DNA from: Coriobacteriia bacterium
GTDB lineage: Bacteria > Actinomycetota > Coriobacteriia > Coriobacteriales > JAEZZM01
NCBI GenBank assembly: GCA_030532415.1
Contig: JAUNLE010000010.1
Location: 1 to 32,524, forward strand
Reading direction: 5' to 3'
DNA: 32,524 bases
Shown: piece by piece, positions 10,306-32,509 of the stretch
How the letters are laid out: each line of letters starts with the position of its first letter
Numbering within the stretch: the first letter of the stretch is position 1
The notes under the pieces: model-generated
Seen by the model: the letters and a program-made list of their open reading frames with translations, nothing else
What the model was told of the DNA's origin: nothing
The model's database searches: none
Translations under genes and position numbers: made by a program

Positions 10306-10483
10306 AAGAGTAGCCTCCTCGCGCAGTGTATACTATATCCAATGATATACGGCGCTTCTTGAAAATTCGTGAACTATCAAGCTAAGGCGTTACAAGTTTG
10401 TTAAATTACTTTTCTAATTGGATTTTCTTGTGATTATTATTAAACTGAAAGAAGCAATATTCTTAGATTGATTGAGGAGACTC

Positions 10484-11221
10484 ATGCCTACTATTCTCGT
10501 AATCGAAGATGACCCCACAATTCGTCTTACTATGGAATTCGCACTTACTAAAGCAAATTATGGTGTATCTACGGCAGCCGATGGATCAACTGGTCTAGAT
10601 ATTGCGAGAAAAATTAAACCCGACCTTATTTTGCTCGACTTGATGCTTCCAGGAATGTCTGGCATTGATGTTGCTCGAACGCTGCGTTTAACCGACAGCG
10701 AAACGCCAATTATTATGGTGACTGCGCTAGGTTCAGATGAAGATAAGGTTCGAGGACTAGATGCTGGGGCAGACGACTACATAACGAAACCTTTTTCTAC
10801 CAAAGAACTGTTAGCTCGCATCCGCGCAAATATGAGAAGAGTTAATAAGTCTAGCGAGAAAACGGAAGATAAGATTTACGAGTACGGAGACTTAAGCATA
10901 GACACCTCTTCAACTCGAGTAAGTGTCAAAGATCAACTGATCAAGCTTCGTTCAAAAGAATATGAGCTCTTAGTTGCCATGGCGTCCAGACCAGGTGCAC
11001 TTGCACGAAGAGAATGGCTTGCCCGCACTGTTTGGGGAGAAGAGTTTTTATCAACATCTCGAACCATCGACGTGCATGTTCGCCGCATTCGCAAAGCGAT
11101 CGAAGGTATTAGCGACTATTACTTTATTCATACGGTACACGGCATGGGCTATCGTTTTGAAGCAGTTCATAAAACTGATGCTAAGCACAAGCCAGACCAT
11201 GATGATTACGCCAATGAATAG
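10484..11221 (+). CDS. OmpR/PhoB-family response regulator (PhoB/PhoP-type)
   Basis: This is a two-domain DNA-binding response regulator of 245 residues. The receiver has an acidic pocket (E8, D9, D10), phospho-acceptor D52 in LLDLMLPG and K102 in ITKPF. The winged-helix output domain follows from about residue 130, with RTIDVHVRRIRKAI. The ATG at 10484 is chosen because GAGGAG sits five bases upstream; an in-frame TTG at 10472 would lie before that ribosome-binding site. The sensor kinase gene follows after 17 bases. Its position divergent from pstB and beside a PhoR-like kinase suggests phosphate-starvation control. I do not see a clear Pho box in the intergenic region, so the regulon is inferred. 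A short, poorly conserved C-terminal tail is rich in H, K and D. Confidence 0.88.
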   Translation: MPTILVIEDDPTIRLTMEFALTKANYGVSTAADGSTGLDIARKIKPDLILLDLMLPGMSGIDVARTLRLTDSETPIIMVTALGSDEDKVRGLDAGADDYITKPFSTKELLARIRANMRRVNKSSEKTEDKIYEYGDLSIDTSSTRVSVKDQLIKLRSKEYELLVAMASRPGALARREWLARTVWGEEFLSTSRTIDVHVRRIRKAIEGISDYYFIHTVHGMGYRFEAVHKTDAKHKPDHDDYANE

Positions 11222-11238
11222 TAAATACGTGCGCTGAT

Positions 11239-12549
11239 ATGCAAATTCCTTCACTATCAGAGCTTCGCGATAAGCTTTCCAGTTCAGGATGGAGAGGATT
11301 TTTGATTCTTTCCTATATATTAGTTGTCGCGGTGTTTGTAGTCTTATGGGTATGGCTTCTGCTGGTGCCCTTGCAAAGCACCTCCGTTGACGAACAGGCT
11401 GTTGCCTTGAGTTCGGTAGCCGACGCAACCGTTTACATTTTAGAAGAACACCCTGATTCAGATTTTAAAACAGTGGTTGAAAACGTCGCAAAAAACGACA
11501 CGATGAGAGTAAGCATTATTGCGGCCAATGGCCACGTTTTAGCAGACTCAAGGCTTGACCTTGACGAACTTGACAATCATCTTGAGCGTCCAGAAATTGT
11601 ATCGGCTCAAAAAGATGGAGTGGGAATTTCGGTTAGAACTTCTGACTCCGATAATAAGAGACGCATTTATGTAGCCAAGCAGTTTGAAAACGAAAAACAT
11701 AAAGGTTATGTGCGAATTGCCGAGCAAATGAACGCTATCGACAAGGCAACGCGCAACGGGCAAATTAGTGGTTTCATTCTTTTAGTTATTGGCATCATAG
11801 TCTTAGGCATTGTTGCTGCTACCACCTTGCGTCGAGCCACCTCGCCTGTAGGTCATCTTGAACGAGTGCGCACAGACTTCGTGGCTAATGCTTCGCACGA
11901 ACTTAAAACTCCTGTAGCTGGCATCAAGCTTTTAGCAGAATCACTCGAGATAGCAGCACATGACAAGGATTATGAAACGGTAGAAATATTTTCTCAACGA
12001 CTGGGTGATGAAACTGAACGGCTGCAGTCTTTGGTAACTGACCTGCTTGATTTATCAAGACTTGAACAAAGCGATATTCAGGCTCGTAAAGGAGAGACCG
12101 ACCTTCACGCAATTTTATCTGCCGAAGTCGAATCCAGACGTAGTTCCATAAACACAAAGGGACTGTATTTGAAGTTTATTGATAGCACCCCGCAAAATAT
12201 TTCAACACGCTTTCCCATCTCGAGTTCTGACGCTGCACTTATCATCGATAACTTAATTGATAATGCGATTAGGTATACCGATGAGGGTGGCGTAACGGTT
12301 ACCCTGTTTTGCGACAAAAAAGAAGCCCTCATAAAGGTAAGCGATACAGGAATCGGCATGAGCGCCGATGTCATCCCAAGAATTTTTGAACGTTTCTATC
12401 GCGTTGATGTGGCTCGTTCTCGCGAGCTTGGAGGAACTGGCCTTGGCTTGTCACTCGTTCGTCATGCGGTATTGAAATCGCGAGGAACCATTGAGGTTGA
12501 CTCAACGGTTGGCGAAGGCACAACCTTTCGCGTTCGTATCCCCCGCTAA
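11239..12549 (+). CDS. PhoR-like sensor histidine kinase without visible HAMP domain
   Basis: The kinase has 436 residues. TM1 covers about residues 21-43 and TM2 about 177-197. The extracytoplasmic region between them contains GHVLADSRLD and NHLERPEI, the pattern of the sensor domain in Gram-positive PhoR/WalK-type kinases. The phospho-accepting histidine is H220 in ASHELKTPV. The ATPase domain has N-box DNLIDNAIRYT, G1 SDTGIGM, F-box FERFYR and G2 GGTGLGLSLV. Only about 20 residues separate TM2 from the dimerisation helix, so the HAMP and PAS modules normal for PhoR are missing. It is cotranscribed with the upstream response regulator. The ATG has only a weak ribosome-binding site. A phosphate-sensing role is inferred from domain type and from pstB next door. 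Confidence 0.88.
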   Translation: MQIPSLSELRDKLSSSGWRGFLILSYILVVAVFVVLWVWLLLVPLQSTSVDEQAVALSSVADATVYILEEHPDSDFKTVVENVAKNDTMRVSIIAANGHVLADSRLDLDELDNHLERPEIVSAQKDGVGISVRTSDSDNKRRIYVAKQFENEKHKGYVRIAEQMNAIDKATRNGQISGFILLVIGIIVLGIVAATTLRRATSPVGHLERVRTDFVANASHELKTPVAGIKLLAESLEIAAHDKDYETVEIFSQRLGDETERLQSLVTDLLDLSRLEQSDIQARKGETDLHAILSAEVESRRSSINTKGLYLKFIDSTPQNISTRFPISSSDAALIIDNLIDNAIRYTDEGGVTVTLFCDKKEALIKVSDTGIGMSADVIPRIFERFYRVDVARSRELGGTGLGLSLVRHAVLKSRGTIEVDSTVGEGTTFRVRIPR

Positions 12550-27399: not shown

Positions 27400-28170
27400 T
27401 TAGGAAAGAAAGGGCTCAAGAGGCTTCCACTTTTCAGCCAGCTTCTCTAAAGAAAATCGAGCATTTGCTGGACTTGTTGAAGGTAAGCCTAGTGCTGTTC
27501 GCCCAAGTGTTTGCGCCTGATATTTCTTAAAGAGCTTCGTTGCTAGTCCCCCATTCGTCACAATAAGTTCTATGGGAGCTTCTTGTAATATTGGATCTAA
27601 ATTCGTAGGTACTACATTTTTGATTGAAGCATCTGAACTTCCTATGATGTCACACTCATAAATTACATCGTATAGGGCAATGTGATGAGTGCTAAGAAAA
27701 TCAATCTTCTCTTCTTTCGTTTGAGGAGTTTCATCGTTTGAAAGCAAGGCCATCAGCGGCCAAAAACGATTCTGAGGATGACCATAGAAAAACTGTGATG
27801 ACCTCGTTTTTACGGACGGAAAGCTCCCTAAAACGAGCACGCGTGAATCGCTTTTGTAAAAAGGTTCCAAAGGATGAACAATATGCTCGTATCTCTCATC
27901 TTCATCCCGCATGCGCTCTGTCCTCTCATAGCTAGCAATAAGCTCTAATTTTTGACTTCGTGATAGCTGCTTGATGAAATACTCACGTTTTGATGCAGCC
28001 GACCTATCCTCTTGTCGTTCTAGATACTTAAGCTTTACCGGTGTCCTCGTTTTTGTGTATTTGGCACCAGTATGGGCGTTATGTTCAGCTATTCTGCGTT
28101 CAATATTGGTAGTAATTCCTGTGTACAAACTTGTATCGGCACACTCAAGAATATATACGTAATAGGGCAT
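27400..28170 (-). CDS. GIY-YIG nuclease fused to a hypoxanthine/uracil-type DNA glycosylase
   Basis: The protein has 256 residues and two domains. Residues 1-85 form a GIY-YIG domain of the YhbQ/URI type: YYVYILECADTSLYTGITTN, then R26-R27 and E63 in the A-x3-R-E-x-x-IK segment. Residues 95-256 match a uracil-DNA-glycosylase superfamily member of the deoxyinosine (hypoxanthine) glycosylase group: LGSFPS (115-120), FFYGHPQNRFWPL (127-139), ALYDVIYECDIIGSSDASI and LPSTSPANA (229-237). The fusion would join base removal and strand cutting in one enzyme, which is an inference. The ATG at 28170 has AGGAG eight bases upstream; a longer open frame to 28203 has no such signal. The promoter is shared with divergent fhs. 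Confidence 0.85.
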   Translation of the reverse strand: MPYYVYILECADTSLYTGITTNIERRIAEHNAHTGAKYTKTRTPVKLKYLERQEDRSAASKREYFIKQLSRSQKLELIASYERTERMRDEDERYEHIVHPLEPFYKSDSRVLVLGSFPSVKTRSSQFFYGHPQNRFWPLMALLSNDETPQTKEEKIDFLSTHHIALYDVIYECDIIGSSDASIKNVVPTNLDPILQEAPIELIVTNGGLATKLFKKYQAQTLGRTALGLPSTSPANARFSLEKLAEKWKPLEPFLS

Positions 28171-28303
28171 AACAAAACTCCTAAATATGCCAAAATTTCT
28201 CATAATAGTGAGATACTGTTAGGTAACGGCATTATGCTTTGGATAGTACTTAGTTTATCTGAGTATAGAATTTCAAAAAGGGCTTTTATGTAAAGAGGTG
28301 TGT

Positions 28304-30045: not shown

Positions 30046-31281
30046 TTAGTTTTTCAGGTGGGCAGTATCGTCTGCATATTTTGGCAGATAAAAACCGAGT
30101 ACCGTGCCTTGCCCTAATTCGCTTTTTGCAAACATTTCTCCCTCATGCTCTTCGACAATTGCCTTAGAAATCGCAAGGCCTAAACCAAGACCTCCCGTTT
30201 TATTTGAACGAGATGAATCGGCTCGGTAAAAACGCTCAAAAATATAGGGCAAATCTTCAGGGGGAATTCCTTTTCCGCTATCGCTCACAGATAGCTCATA
30301 GGCATGCTGATCTTTGAGCTCCTTTAAAGCAAGCTGTATACTTCCTTTTTCTGTGTATCGAAAGGCATTGCTAAGCAAATTATCAATTACCTGCGTAATC
30401 CTTATTTTATCTGCATAAACATAGGCTATTTTCGGCTCAAGATTCAGTTGAAAAGATAGCTGCTCACTTGAACTATTCTCATAACTTCGAGCAAGCTCTT
30501 GCATAAGTGCGGCTACATCCAACTTTTCCTTATGGAGGCTAAGTTTTTTTGCATCGGCTAAACTGAGCTCTTGCATATCATCGATTAACACTGCAAGCTT
30601 TTTGTTTTCAGCCAAAGCTTGCCCAACATTTTCTTTCGTAATTGGCAAAATACCATCGAACATGGCTTCAAGCTGAAGGTTAGCACTCGAGAGCGGGTTT
30701 TTTAGCTCATGCGACATATCGTTGATAAGGCGCCTTCTAAGCGCTTCATTTTCTTGCAGTGTATTGCTCATACTCTCAAGAGAGTTTCCTAAGTCATAAA
30801 ACTCCCGCGGCAAGAATCTTGGATACGCTATTTTCTGGTATTCATCTTGAGCAATGCTCTGCGCAAGTTTCGTGTAGCGCTCTATAAGTTTTGTGAGTAA
30901 ATAAGAGACTACGAATGCTATGGCCAGAGCAATTGCCAGGGCTGCAAGTATTGCAATCAGGGTGTTTCTAGCAAGCGATTGCACTAAGTTCTTTTCGGCA
31001 GTTCCTAAATTTTGAACCATAAGCCCTTTTCCGGACTTGCTTGCATTCATGCCTCGACCTTTGTTTTGGCCTTGAGAGTTATTGTTACCTTCACCTTTGT
31101 TTTGGTTTTCGGATCTGCCTTGGCCCATCATTGAAGGCCCCATACCACCTTGCCAATATCTATCGAGCGATTGTTCTATGGCCGCTTGATTTATGGCAGC
31201 GAAGATAAGAAGGACGAGAAGCGAGCTAAAAAATACTATGAAAAAAAGGTAGGAGCGCGTACTGAGCTTATGTTTTTTCAT
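30046..31281 (-). CDS. Sensor histidine kinase with a Gly/Asn/Gln/Lys-rich extracellular loop
   Basis: The kinase has 411 residues. TM1 covers about 11-31 and TM2 about 106-130. The roughly 74-residue outside loop is low complexity and rich in G, N, Q, K and M (for example QGGMGPSMMGQGRSENQNKG), with no known sensor fold. A HAMP-like linker spans about 131-183, H191 lies in DMSHELKNPL, the N-box is DNLLSNAFRYT, G1 is SDSGKGI, the F-box is FERFYR and G2 is GLGLGLAIS. The response regulator is ten bases upstream and a secreted repeat protein precedes that. The loop composition echoes the C-terminal half of the secreted protein, which may be a clue to its ligand. The BaeS/PhoR-like catalytic core is clear; the signal is unknown. 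Confidence 0.9.
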   Translation of the reverse strand: MKKHKLSTRSYLFFIVFFSSLLVLLIFAAINQAAIEQSLDRYWQGGMGPSMMGQGRSENQNKGEGNNNSQGQNKGRGMNASKSGKGLMVQNLGTAEKNLVQSLARNTLIAILAALAIALAIAFVVSYLLTKLIERYTKLAQSIAQDEYQKIAYPRFLPREFYDLGNSLESMSNTLQENEALRRRLINDMSHELKNPLSSANLQLEAMFDGILPITKENVGQALAENKKLAVLIDDMQELSLADAKKLSLHKEKLDVAALMQELARSYENSSSEQLSFQLNLEPKIAYVYADKIRITQVIDNLLSNAFRYTEKGSIQLALKELKDQHAYELSVSDSGKGIPPEDLPYIFERFYRADSSRSNKTGGLGLGLAISKAIVEEHEGEMFAKSELGQGTVLGFYLPKYADDTAHLKN

Positions 31282-31291
31282 GACGAACTAT

Positions 31292-31987
31292 CTAACCGCC
31301 ACTCTTATAGCCAGCACCAATAACCGTAATAATATAGTTTTGTTGCTTAGGGGACTCGTGGAGTTTCTTGCGCAAATTCTTAATATGGGCATCAATGCTG
31401 CGAATATCTTGATATTCATTGATACTTTGCGCTTCGCTTAAATGATCTATCATCTGCTGTCTGGAAAACACCTGCCCAGGATGGCTTAACAGAAGCGTGA
31501 GGAGCAAATATTCCGTATTGGTAAGATTGATTAGTTCGTCTTTAAGAAAAACTTCATGTGTTTTCAAATCAATTTCAAGATCTTGGTGGCGAATCTTTTG
31601 GACAGCAGGCTCCTGAGCATTTGGATCGTCTTGCACTCGTCTTAGGACTGCCTTTATGCGAGCCATCAATACGTTGGGGCTAAAAGGTTTGGTCACATAG
31701 TCGTCTGCCTGAAGTTCAAAGCCATAAAGCAAATCATCTTCTTGCGATTTTGCAGACAAGAAAATAACGGGAGTACCCTGGAGTTTCAATTGAGAAGCCA
31801 AGGCATAACCATCAACACCAGGGAGCATGATGTCAAGCACTGCTAAATCTATGTGTTCACGATTGATAAGATTAAGCGCATCTTCACCATTATACGCAGT
31901 GAGTACCTCGAAGCCTTCACGCTTGAGGTACTCACGTACAATAGATACGATTGTCTCATTGTCATCTACGAGCAAGATGTTCGTCAT
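31292..31987 (-). CDS. OmpR-family response regulator, BaeR-like
   Basis: This is a 231-residue DNA-binding response regulator. The receiver has acidic residues D8 and D9, phospho-acceptor D52 in VLDIMLPG and K100 in VTKPFS. The winged-helix domain contains LTNTEYLLLTLLLS and RSIDAHIKNLRKKL, the latter close to the BaeR pattern. It begins six bases after the stop of the secreted repeat protein and ends ten bases before the kinase start, so the three genes read as one transcription unit and it is paired with the downstream kinase. BaeR-type regulators commonly respond to envelope stress; here the target genes are unknown, and the adjacent repeat protein is an obvious first candidate for control. 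Confidence 0.92.
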   Translation of the reverse strand: MTNILLVDDNETIVSIVREYLKREGFEVLTAYNGEDALNLINREHIDLAVLDIMLPGVDGYALASQLKLQGTPVIFLSAKSQEDDLLYGFELQADDYVTKPFSPNVLMARIKAVLRRVQDDPNAQEPAVQKIRHQDLEIDLKTHEVFLKDELINLTNTEYLLLTLLLSHPGQVFSRQQMIDHLSEAQSINEYQDIRSIDAHIKNLRKKLHESPKQQNYIITVIGAGYKSGG

Positions 31988-31993
31988 ACAGAC

Positions 31994-32509
31994 TTACTTT
32001 CCGTTAGCAAAACCTTTGCCTGCCATTTTACCCTGAGCTTGAGCTCTTTTGTTGGCGCCAAAAGCACCTTTGCCGTTTTGAGGTCTTTCGCCATTTTGTA
32101 GACGAGCACAGTTATCGTTCACACCGTCGCCATCTTCGTCTACAAAGTTAGGGCAGTTTTCGTTGGTGCCATTGCCGTTTTGACGACCAAGATTTCGACG
32201 ATTGTCGTTAAAGCCATCGCCATCTTCGTCTACAAAATTTGGACAGTTTTCGTTGGTACCATTACCGTTTTGACGACCGTAATTTGGACGATTGTCGTTT
32301 ATGCCATCGCCATCTTCGTCTACAAAGTTTGGACAGTTGTCGCGTTGGTTGAGTCTTTGACCTGGATTAGCTTTTTGCACCACTTGCTCTTGAACTGTAA
32401 CCTTTGGAGGTACTGGCACTGGTTGAGCTCCTGCTGCAAATGCAGCGCCGCCTAAACCGAAAACTAACAGTAGTGCTGAGGCGCTTGAGATTATATGTTT
32501 CGCTTTCAT
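31994..32509 (-). CDS. Secreted protein with 30-residue DxDxDG (TSP3/EF-hand-like) repeats
   Basis: This is a 171-residue exported protein. A signal peptide with a hydrophobic core at residues 8-22 and a likely cut after AFA (residue 25) leads to a Pro/Val/Gln linker, then three repeats beginning at residues 58, 88 and 118. Each contains NCPNFVDEDGDG, an Asp/Asn loop typical of calcium-binding thrombospondin type 3 or EF-hand-like sites, and the repeat period is 30 residues. One cysteine opens each repeat and a fourth follows the third loop. The C-terminus is basic and Gly/Lys/Asn-rich. AAGGAG lies seven bases before the ATG. The protein is first in the operon with the BaeR-like regulator and kinase. 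Calcium binding is inferred from the loop; function is unknown. Confidence 0.88.
   Translation of the reverse strand: MKAKHIISSASALLLVFGLGGAAFAAGAQPVPVPPKVTVQEQVVQKANPGQRLNQRDNCPNFVDEDGDGINDNRPNYGRQNGNGTNENCPNFVDEDGDGFNDNRRNLGRQNGNGTNENCPNFVDEDGDGVNDNCARLQNGERPQNGKGAFGANKRAQAQGKMAGKGFANGK
32092..32338 (-). repeat. 90-bp in-frame tandem repeats in the secreted DxDxDG protein gene
   Basis: Two full units (32249-32338 and 32159-32248) and a partial third (about 32092-32158) repeat at DNA as well as protein level. The Asp-rich core is almost identical, and differences fall mainly at the residues after DGDG and NDN. Exact spacing of 90 bases keeps the frame. Confidence 0.88.

Follow-up and report, generated by a model that had tools for sequence, protein, structure and literature searches.

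The three-gene locus

The window analysed here, a stretch of 32,524 nucleotides, is an entire contig of a 1.41-Mb Coriobacteriia genome. Three minus-strand genes occupy positions 30046-32509, encoding a repeat protein, a response regulator and a sensor kinase, with gaps of 6 and 10 bases between them:

31994..32509, minus strand: exported DxDxDG-repeat protein, first gene seen of the unit (ORF of 171 aa; no Pfam or NCBIfam family at cut-off)
31292..31987, minus strand: OmpR/PhoB-family response regulator (231 aa; Pfam PF00072 and PF00486)
30046..31281, minus strand: BaeS-like sensor histidine kinase (411 aa; two TM helices; Pfam PF00512 and PF02518, no HAMP match in Pfam)

An earlier reading made from the letters alone (the sequence-only reading) had placed the trio in series with these gaps, and the three ORFs, all on the minus strand, bear this out. 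A Shine-Dalgarno-like GGAAAG of the regulator gene overlaps the final codons of the repeat gene. No strong terminator was found between the three genes; the region has a single minus-strand terminator-like site, a weak one within the kinase gene. The contig ends 15 bases upstream of the repeat-gene start codon, so the promoter of the unit is unreadable and the upstream end of the operon unseen. Elsewhere in the window (27400-28203, minus strand), a GIY-YIG nuclease domain (PF01541, 7e-19) and a DNA-deoxyinosine glycosylase (TIGR04274, 115.6 bits for a cut-off of 80) are joined in one ORF, a possible single-protein repair unit.

The exported repeat protein

The first gene seen encodes a small protein with the following features:

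32435..32509, minus strand: Sec-type signal peptide, residues 1-25, AFA/AG, MKAKHIISSASALLLVFGLGGAAFA (from the sequence; helix 5-19 in the AlphaFold2 model)
32294..32320, minus strand: calcium-type loop 1, DEDGDGIND (from the sequence; the block covering it has pLDDT 79 in an otherwise low-confidence AlphaFold2 model)
32204..32230, minus strand: calcium-type loop 2, DEDGDGFND (from the sequence)
32114..32140, minus strand: calcium-type loop 3, DEDGDGVND (from the sequence)
32127..32342, minus strand: 90-bp tandem DNA repeat beneath the loops (2.4 copies, 89% matches)
31997..32107, minus strand: disordered G/N/Q/K tail (from the sequence; mostly pLDDT <50 in AlphaFold2)

The Sec-type signal and the three DxDxDGxxD loops agree with the initial description of a secreted protein bearing three calcium-type loops. 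The loops lie in three copies of NCPNFVDEDGDGxNDN, and all of them follow the DxDxDG calcium-loop consensus, as DEDGDG[IFV]ND. The DNA beneath them is nearly identical from copy to copy (90 bp, 89%), which points to a recent tandem duplication as the origin of the array. Loops of the DxDxDGxxD form are of calcium type (PMC10536834), and the exported protein would bind calcium through them. It matches no Pfam or NCBIfam family at cut-off and no PDB sequence, nor do Pfam EF-hand, dockerin or TSP_3 match it at E<=1. Its AlphaFold2 model is mostly disordered (pLDDT 58.8, pTM 0.23), a confidence too low for a structure-based identity, which was dropped.

The regulator, the kinase and its outside loop

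The regulator is composed of Response_reg and Trans_reg_C domains, and the kinase of HisKA and HATPase_c domains (Pfam). In NCBIfam, the best match of the kinase is BaeS_SmeS, with 198 bits against an equivalog cut-off of 500, and the regulator scores 168 bits on BaeR against a cut-off of 380. The term "BaeR-like" first given to the regulator is loose as a label, no NCBIfam equivalog cut-off being reached. A second two-component system, PhoB/PnpS-like, is found in the window at 10472-12549 (plus strand), divergent from a phosphate-type ABC-transporter ATPase gene; it is probably part of an ordinary phosphate regulon.

The kinase of the trio has one segment that sets it apart:

30985..31173, minus strand: extracytoplasmic loop of the kinase, residues 37-99, low complexity (G/N/Q/K/M), predicted disordered (pLDDT <50; composition outlier)

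This loop had been described as foldless, in keeping with the AlphaFold2 model, in which residues 37-99 have pLDDT <50. Its G/N/Q/K composition is real and unusual: among 11 kinases linked to a repeat gene, set against 35 unlinked ones, the window kinase loop has the top low-complexity score. The likeness noticed between the loop and the tail of the exported protein is a pattern that extends across the family.

Partners of the repeat gene in relatives

A profile search found the repeat protein in 75 of 301 genomes of Coriobacteriales, and the matches of a class-wide search all came from members of this order. An ECF sigma factor and an RsgI-like anti-sigma adjoin the repeat gene in 55 of the 60 order loci examined, the linked anti-sigmas carrying the RsgI central domain PF23750. 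The other five loci are without the sigma/anti-sigma pair, and none of the 60 has a two-component pair as operon partner of the repeat gene. No RsgI-like protein was matched in the window genome, and the kinase pair therefore occupies the place of the sigma pair. In Eggerthellaceae-type loci (L155 and others), the repeat-sigma-anti-sigma operon often follows a tyrosyl-tRNA synthetase gene, about 2 kb from contig ends, and some of these loci seem to run on into rRNA-like sequence.

Related loci were not found with the raw repeat-protein sequence as query, but a degenerate DNA pattern did find them. This pattern favours one codon pattern and gives at least the matches listed, so that the survey serves for occurrence and not for frequency. 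Coriobacteriia and Clostridia of the gut commonly have the sigma form (Slackia, Collinsella, Enterorhabdus, Olsenella, Butyricicoccus and Flavonifractor, among many others), which is the dominant arrangement among the Clostridia loci listed in this survey. Two-component partners appear in other phyla. Among the matches listed, Chloroflexota loci show the repeat-regulator-kinase order of the window (L054/L236, L081, L090/L235, L131 and L140; likewise L230, but with a 1.9-kb gap), and Hydrogenedentota loci show a repeat-kinase-NtrC-type regulator order (L072, L089, L100 and L113). The repeat gene is rare in Chloroflexota, with 5 of 301 genomes at E<=1e-8. Several copies in archaea, Calditrichota and Lachnospiraceae stand alone; together with the five order loci devoid of a sigma pair, they imply that the protein can work without a linked sensor. 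The archaeal stand-alone proteins, exported and of this same DxDxDG type, come from Methanosarcinales, ANME and Methanophagales (L044, L060, L116 and others).

The window kinase has no orthologue in order-mates at E<=1e-60, its best homologues there aligning to the cytoplasmic part only, and vertical descent inside the order was rejected on this ground. In a kinase tree, it falls at an open node (SH-aLRT 84) near a BaeS-like Chloroflexota group that contains all linked kinases. Independent recruitment and transfer from Chloroflexota are both possible origins.

Conservation of the three-gene order in relatives, which the sequence-only reading had offered as a check, is thus found in Chloroflexota but not in the order itself. 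The idea of a fixed three-gene two-component unit has to be revised after this comparison: in the 60 order loci examined, the repeat gene has no two-component pair as operon partner, an outcome that the sequence-only reading had named as refuting. What the linkage and its recurrence in other phyla do uphold is the coupling of an exported DxDxDG protein to a dedicated membrane sensor, and the two are probably coupled in function. The best reading of the genomic distribution is that the signalling module, sigma/anti-sigma or two-component, was swapped in evolution while the exported protein was retained. A chance adjacency of the secreted repeat protein and the two-component pair at a contig end can scarcely be credited. 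The sample includes only one genome of this family and the contig stops 15 bases upstream, but the gaps of 6 and 10 bases and the overlapping ribosome site speak against such an accident, and the recurrence in other phyla, with the same gene order in Chloroflexota, contradicts it.

Promoter motif and output of the sigma form

In a dyad search of sigma-linked loci, about half of the upstream regions shared one motif, with shuffles giving 6 or fewer. The motif, G[AC]A[AT]GGAT-N13-TCGT[AGT]T (27 bases), lies upstream of the repeat gene in 69 of 81 sigma-linked loci for 0.05 expected, at a median distance of 76 bases from the start codon, with 3 more occurrences in the other 1.3 million strand-bases. 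From its place, it is very probably the promoter read by the linked ECF sigma factor. In 12 genomes searched by exact matching, a method that weaker sites would escape, the full consensus is matched only at the repeat-gene promoter, which is the only clear site; the other matches resemble coding-sequence noise, and the reversed pattern gives a similar total. The sigma form thus seems to have essentially a single non-regulatory gene under its control, that of the exported protein. A sigma-type promoter on this gene, together with its standing as apparent sole target, makes the exported protein the output of the switch: apparently a dedicated output rather than an accessory alone, which may additionally feed back on the switch. 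The sigma motif is absent from the Chloroflexota kinase-linked loci, so that autoregulation is indicated for the sigma form only; the window operon would be autoregulated too under the reading proposed below.

These results bear on the mechanism first proposed for the trio, in which the exported protein binds a cation, docks directly on the kinase loop and modulates the kinase. Accessory proteins acting on kinases are established, as for HbpS on SenS and QseG on QseE (PMC4991794, PMC12691602), and the operonic linkage in the window and the similar composition of tail and loop are what this mechanism would lead one to expect. Most relatives, however, pair the protein with an anti-sigma, and the protein is the sigma's own apparent target; the kinase is without a folded docking domain in AlphaFold2, and low-complexity tails offer no specific interface. 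Direct docking on the kinase is regarded as rather unlikely.

Glycine-rich outside segments of the linked sensors

The anti-sigmas adjoining the repeat gene have terminal G/N/Q/H tails resembling those of the repeat proteins. With the maximal glycine fraction in a 30-residue window as score, the linked RsgI-like tails reach a median of 0.37 (n=77) versus 0.13 for unlinked ones (n=23; p=1.8e-9), and the linked kinases 0.20-0.52 (n=11) versus a median of 0.12 in 35 unlinked kinases drawn nearly all from the genomes of the linked ones (p=9e-7), both p-values being computed with sequence relatedness left in. The two other kinases tested in the window genome score 0.08 and 0.16. Sensors linked to the repeat gene, kinase or anti-sigma, thus tend to possess a glycine-rich outside segment, of which the window kinase loop is an example. 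Two unlinked BaeS-like Chloroflexota kinases (L282 and L283) also harbor Met/Gly-rich loops, and this loop type is therefore not confined to repeat-linked kinases. The unlinked RsgI-like anti-sigmas of order-mates (L240-L251) mostly have long poly-Asp ends (DDDDWDDDDD) that may themselves bind cations.

An alternative holds that the exported protein is output only. The switch would sense something else (wall damage, an antimicrobial peptide or acid) through its disordered loop, the exported protein would be a surface or wall-strengthening calcium protein, and the likeness of the tails would reflect a similar surface habitat rather than interaction. Consistent with this are the stand-alone copies and the fact that the sigma form has no clear target besides the exported protein. 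RsgI of Bacillus subtilis, moreover, is held to sense wall gaps via a disordered region that can reportedly be replaced by others. Such a scheme leaves the glycine-richness of the linked sensors unexplained, the unlinked RsgI-like paralogues being mostly acidic-tailed, as well as the histidine covariation described below, itself weak after phylogeny. It is considered unlikely.

In sigma-linked loci, the histidine content of the exported tail covaries with that of the anti-sigma tail, with rho 0.65 before phylogeny is taken into account, and with 3.3 versus 0.2 independent pairs (p about 0.25) afterwards. This lack of significance led to the rejection of the covariation as proof of tail matching, and it is kept as a lead only. 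It has a bearing on a transition-metal unit, whose His/Met/Gly-rich tails and loops would bind Cu, Ni or Zn, with the exported protein as a metal sink. The covariation and the Met and His residues of the Chloroflexota kinase loops would fit such a unit, but the window tail and loop are without His, the sigma motif leads to no metal exporter, and the DxDxDGxxD loops are calcium-type (PMC10536834), which together make it quite improbable.

A proposed autoregulated envelope unit

With a probability of about one half, the three genes form an autoregulated envelope or cation-homeostasis unit with an exchanged signalling module, the exported DxDxDG protein being its dedicated product. In such a unit, the membrane sensor (the kinase and its naked disordered loop in the window; an RsgI-like anti-sigma ending in a disordered tail in relatives) would monitor an extracytoplasmic site. 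This site would be the same one that the exported protein occupies, at the wall or surface, probably with a divalent cation. A bare site or a changed cation status would make the sensor turn the operon on; the exported protein would then be made, bind the cation by its loops and occupy the site with a tail of the same kind as the sensor's, thereby resetting the signal. Evolution would have exchanged the signalling module and kept the exported protein together with a sensor segment of the disordered, glycine-rich type.

This mechanism is put forward by combining two precedents with the gene anatomy described here. The gene arrangement, the loops and signal peptide, the change of partner, the promoter motif in relatives and the sensor composition are observed; calcium binding, what is sensed, the sign of the feedback and autoregulation in the window are inferred. 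For B. subtilis, it has been proposed that RsgI extends its disordered region into the wall to sense gaps there (Brunet et al. 2022, as cited in PMC10128001 and PMC13059805). In Caulobacter, the exported EF-hand protein CaBP, encoded beside an ECF sigma factor, is activated by that sigma, feeds back on it and is Ca2+/pH-responsive (PMC13171946). The Caulobacter calcium protein, however, exerts a positive feedback on its sigma (PMC13171946), in contrast to the negative reset proposed here, and this counts against the proposal. Also against it are the window promoter lying off the contig, the missing sigma motif of the Chloroflexota kinase-linked loci, the copies without a linked sensor, the want of an orthologous kinase in order-mates, and the relatedness left in the composition tests.

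The literature searched on DxDxDG proteins with two-component systems, on thrombospondin type 3 repeats with sigma factors and on glycine-rich sensor kinases does not describe the unit, nor was the sigma form met in it. The window unit is a two-component version of an exported-protein/sensor system that is widespread and apparently undescribed. A broader claim is more doubtful and is made tentatively: that there is an undescribed class of envelope switches in which a calcium-loop protein and a sensor with like disordered glycine-rich segments regulate each other, plugged into ECF sigma/anti-sigma, OmpR-type and NtrC-type two-component systems in at least three lineages. The sigma form (one sensor, one promoter, one product) would offer a simple system for envelope sensing by a disordered segment, with calcium as a possible signal, and the kinase version of the window suggests that a kinase can take over the sensing principle from a sigma/anti-sigma chassis.

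Comparison with known systems

The BaeS-BaeR envelope stress system belongs to the same broad class of kinase and regulator, being the best or a good NCBIfam match of the window pair. In contrast, the window proteins score below the equivalog cut-offs, the ectodomain is another one, and no efflux genes are seen adjoining.

Thrombospondin type 3 repeats have Cys-Pro ahead of each loop, as does the window protein. Their EF-hand-like DxDxDG loops (xDxDxDGxxD, PMC10536834) share the D-x-D-x-D-G-h-x-D consensus with it. The window protein differs from the EF-hand, dockerin and TSP_3 families by having no Pfam match at E<=1 and no acidic residue at loop position 12.

The sequence-only reading had likened the trio to HbpS-SenS-SenR of Streptomyces. 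HbpS, a folded haem/iron protein, forms octamers, and SenS-SenR belong to a different kinase/regulator class. The HbpS/GlcG fold family is not recognised in the exported protein (no Pfam or NCBIfam match, no PDB sequence match, a mostly disordered AlphaFold2 model), and in place of a SenR-type regulator (NarL/LuxR output) and a SenS-type kinase the window has Trans_reg_C and HisKA: its calcium-loop protein is disordered and is accompanied by an OmpR/BaeS-type pair. With both the fold and these kinase and regulator types absent, HbpS-type membership is ruled out and the comparison holds as an analogy only, that of an exported protein, a kinase and a regulator in one signalling pathway (PMC4991794).

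In SigI-RsgI of B. subtilis, the sensing part is the extracytoplasmic disordered region of the membrane sensor, according to the accounts of Brunet et al. (2022) given in PMC10128001 and PMC13059805. The window kinase also has a disordered outside segment (residues 37-99), a likeness in how it would work; the linked anti-sigmas of relatives carry PF23750, whereas the window has a kinase without any RsgI domain. SigI, to our knowledge, is not an ECF factor partnered with an exported DxDxDG protein.

The CaBP-SigV pair of Caulobacter vibrioides differs by the helical EF-hands of CaBP (CREC/calumenin type), with neither a known linked membrane sensor nor a two-component version. CaBP is expected to be without a glycine-rich tail. 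Like the window protein, it is small, is exported and has three calcium loops; an adjoining ECF sigma factor activates it, and the two regulate each other in response to Ca2+ and pH (PMC13171946).
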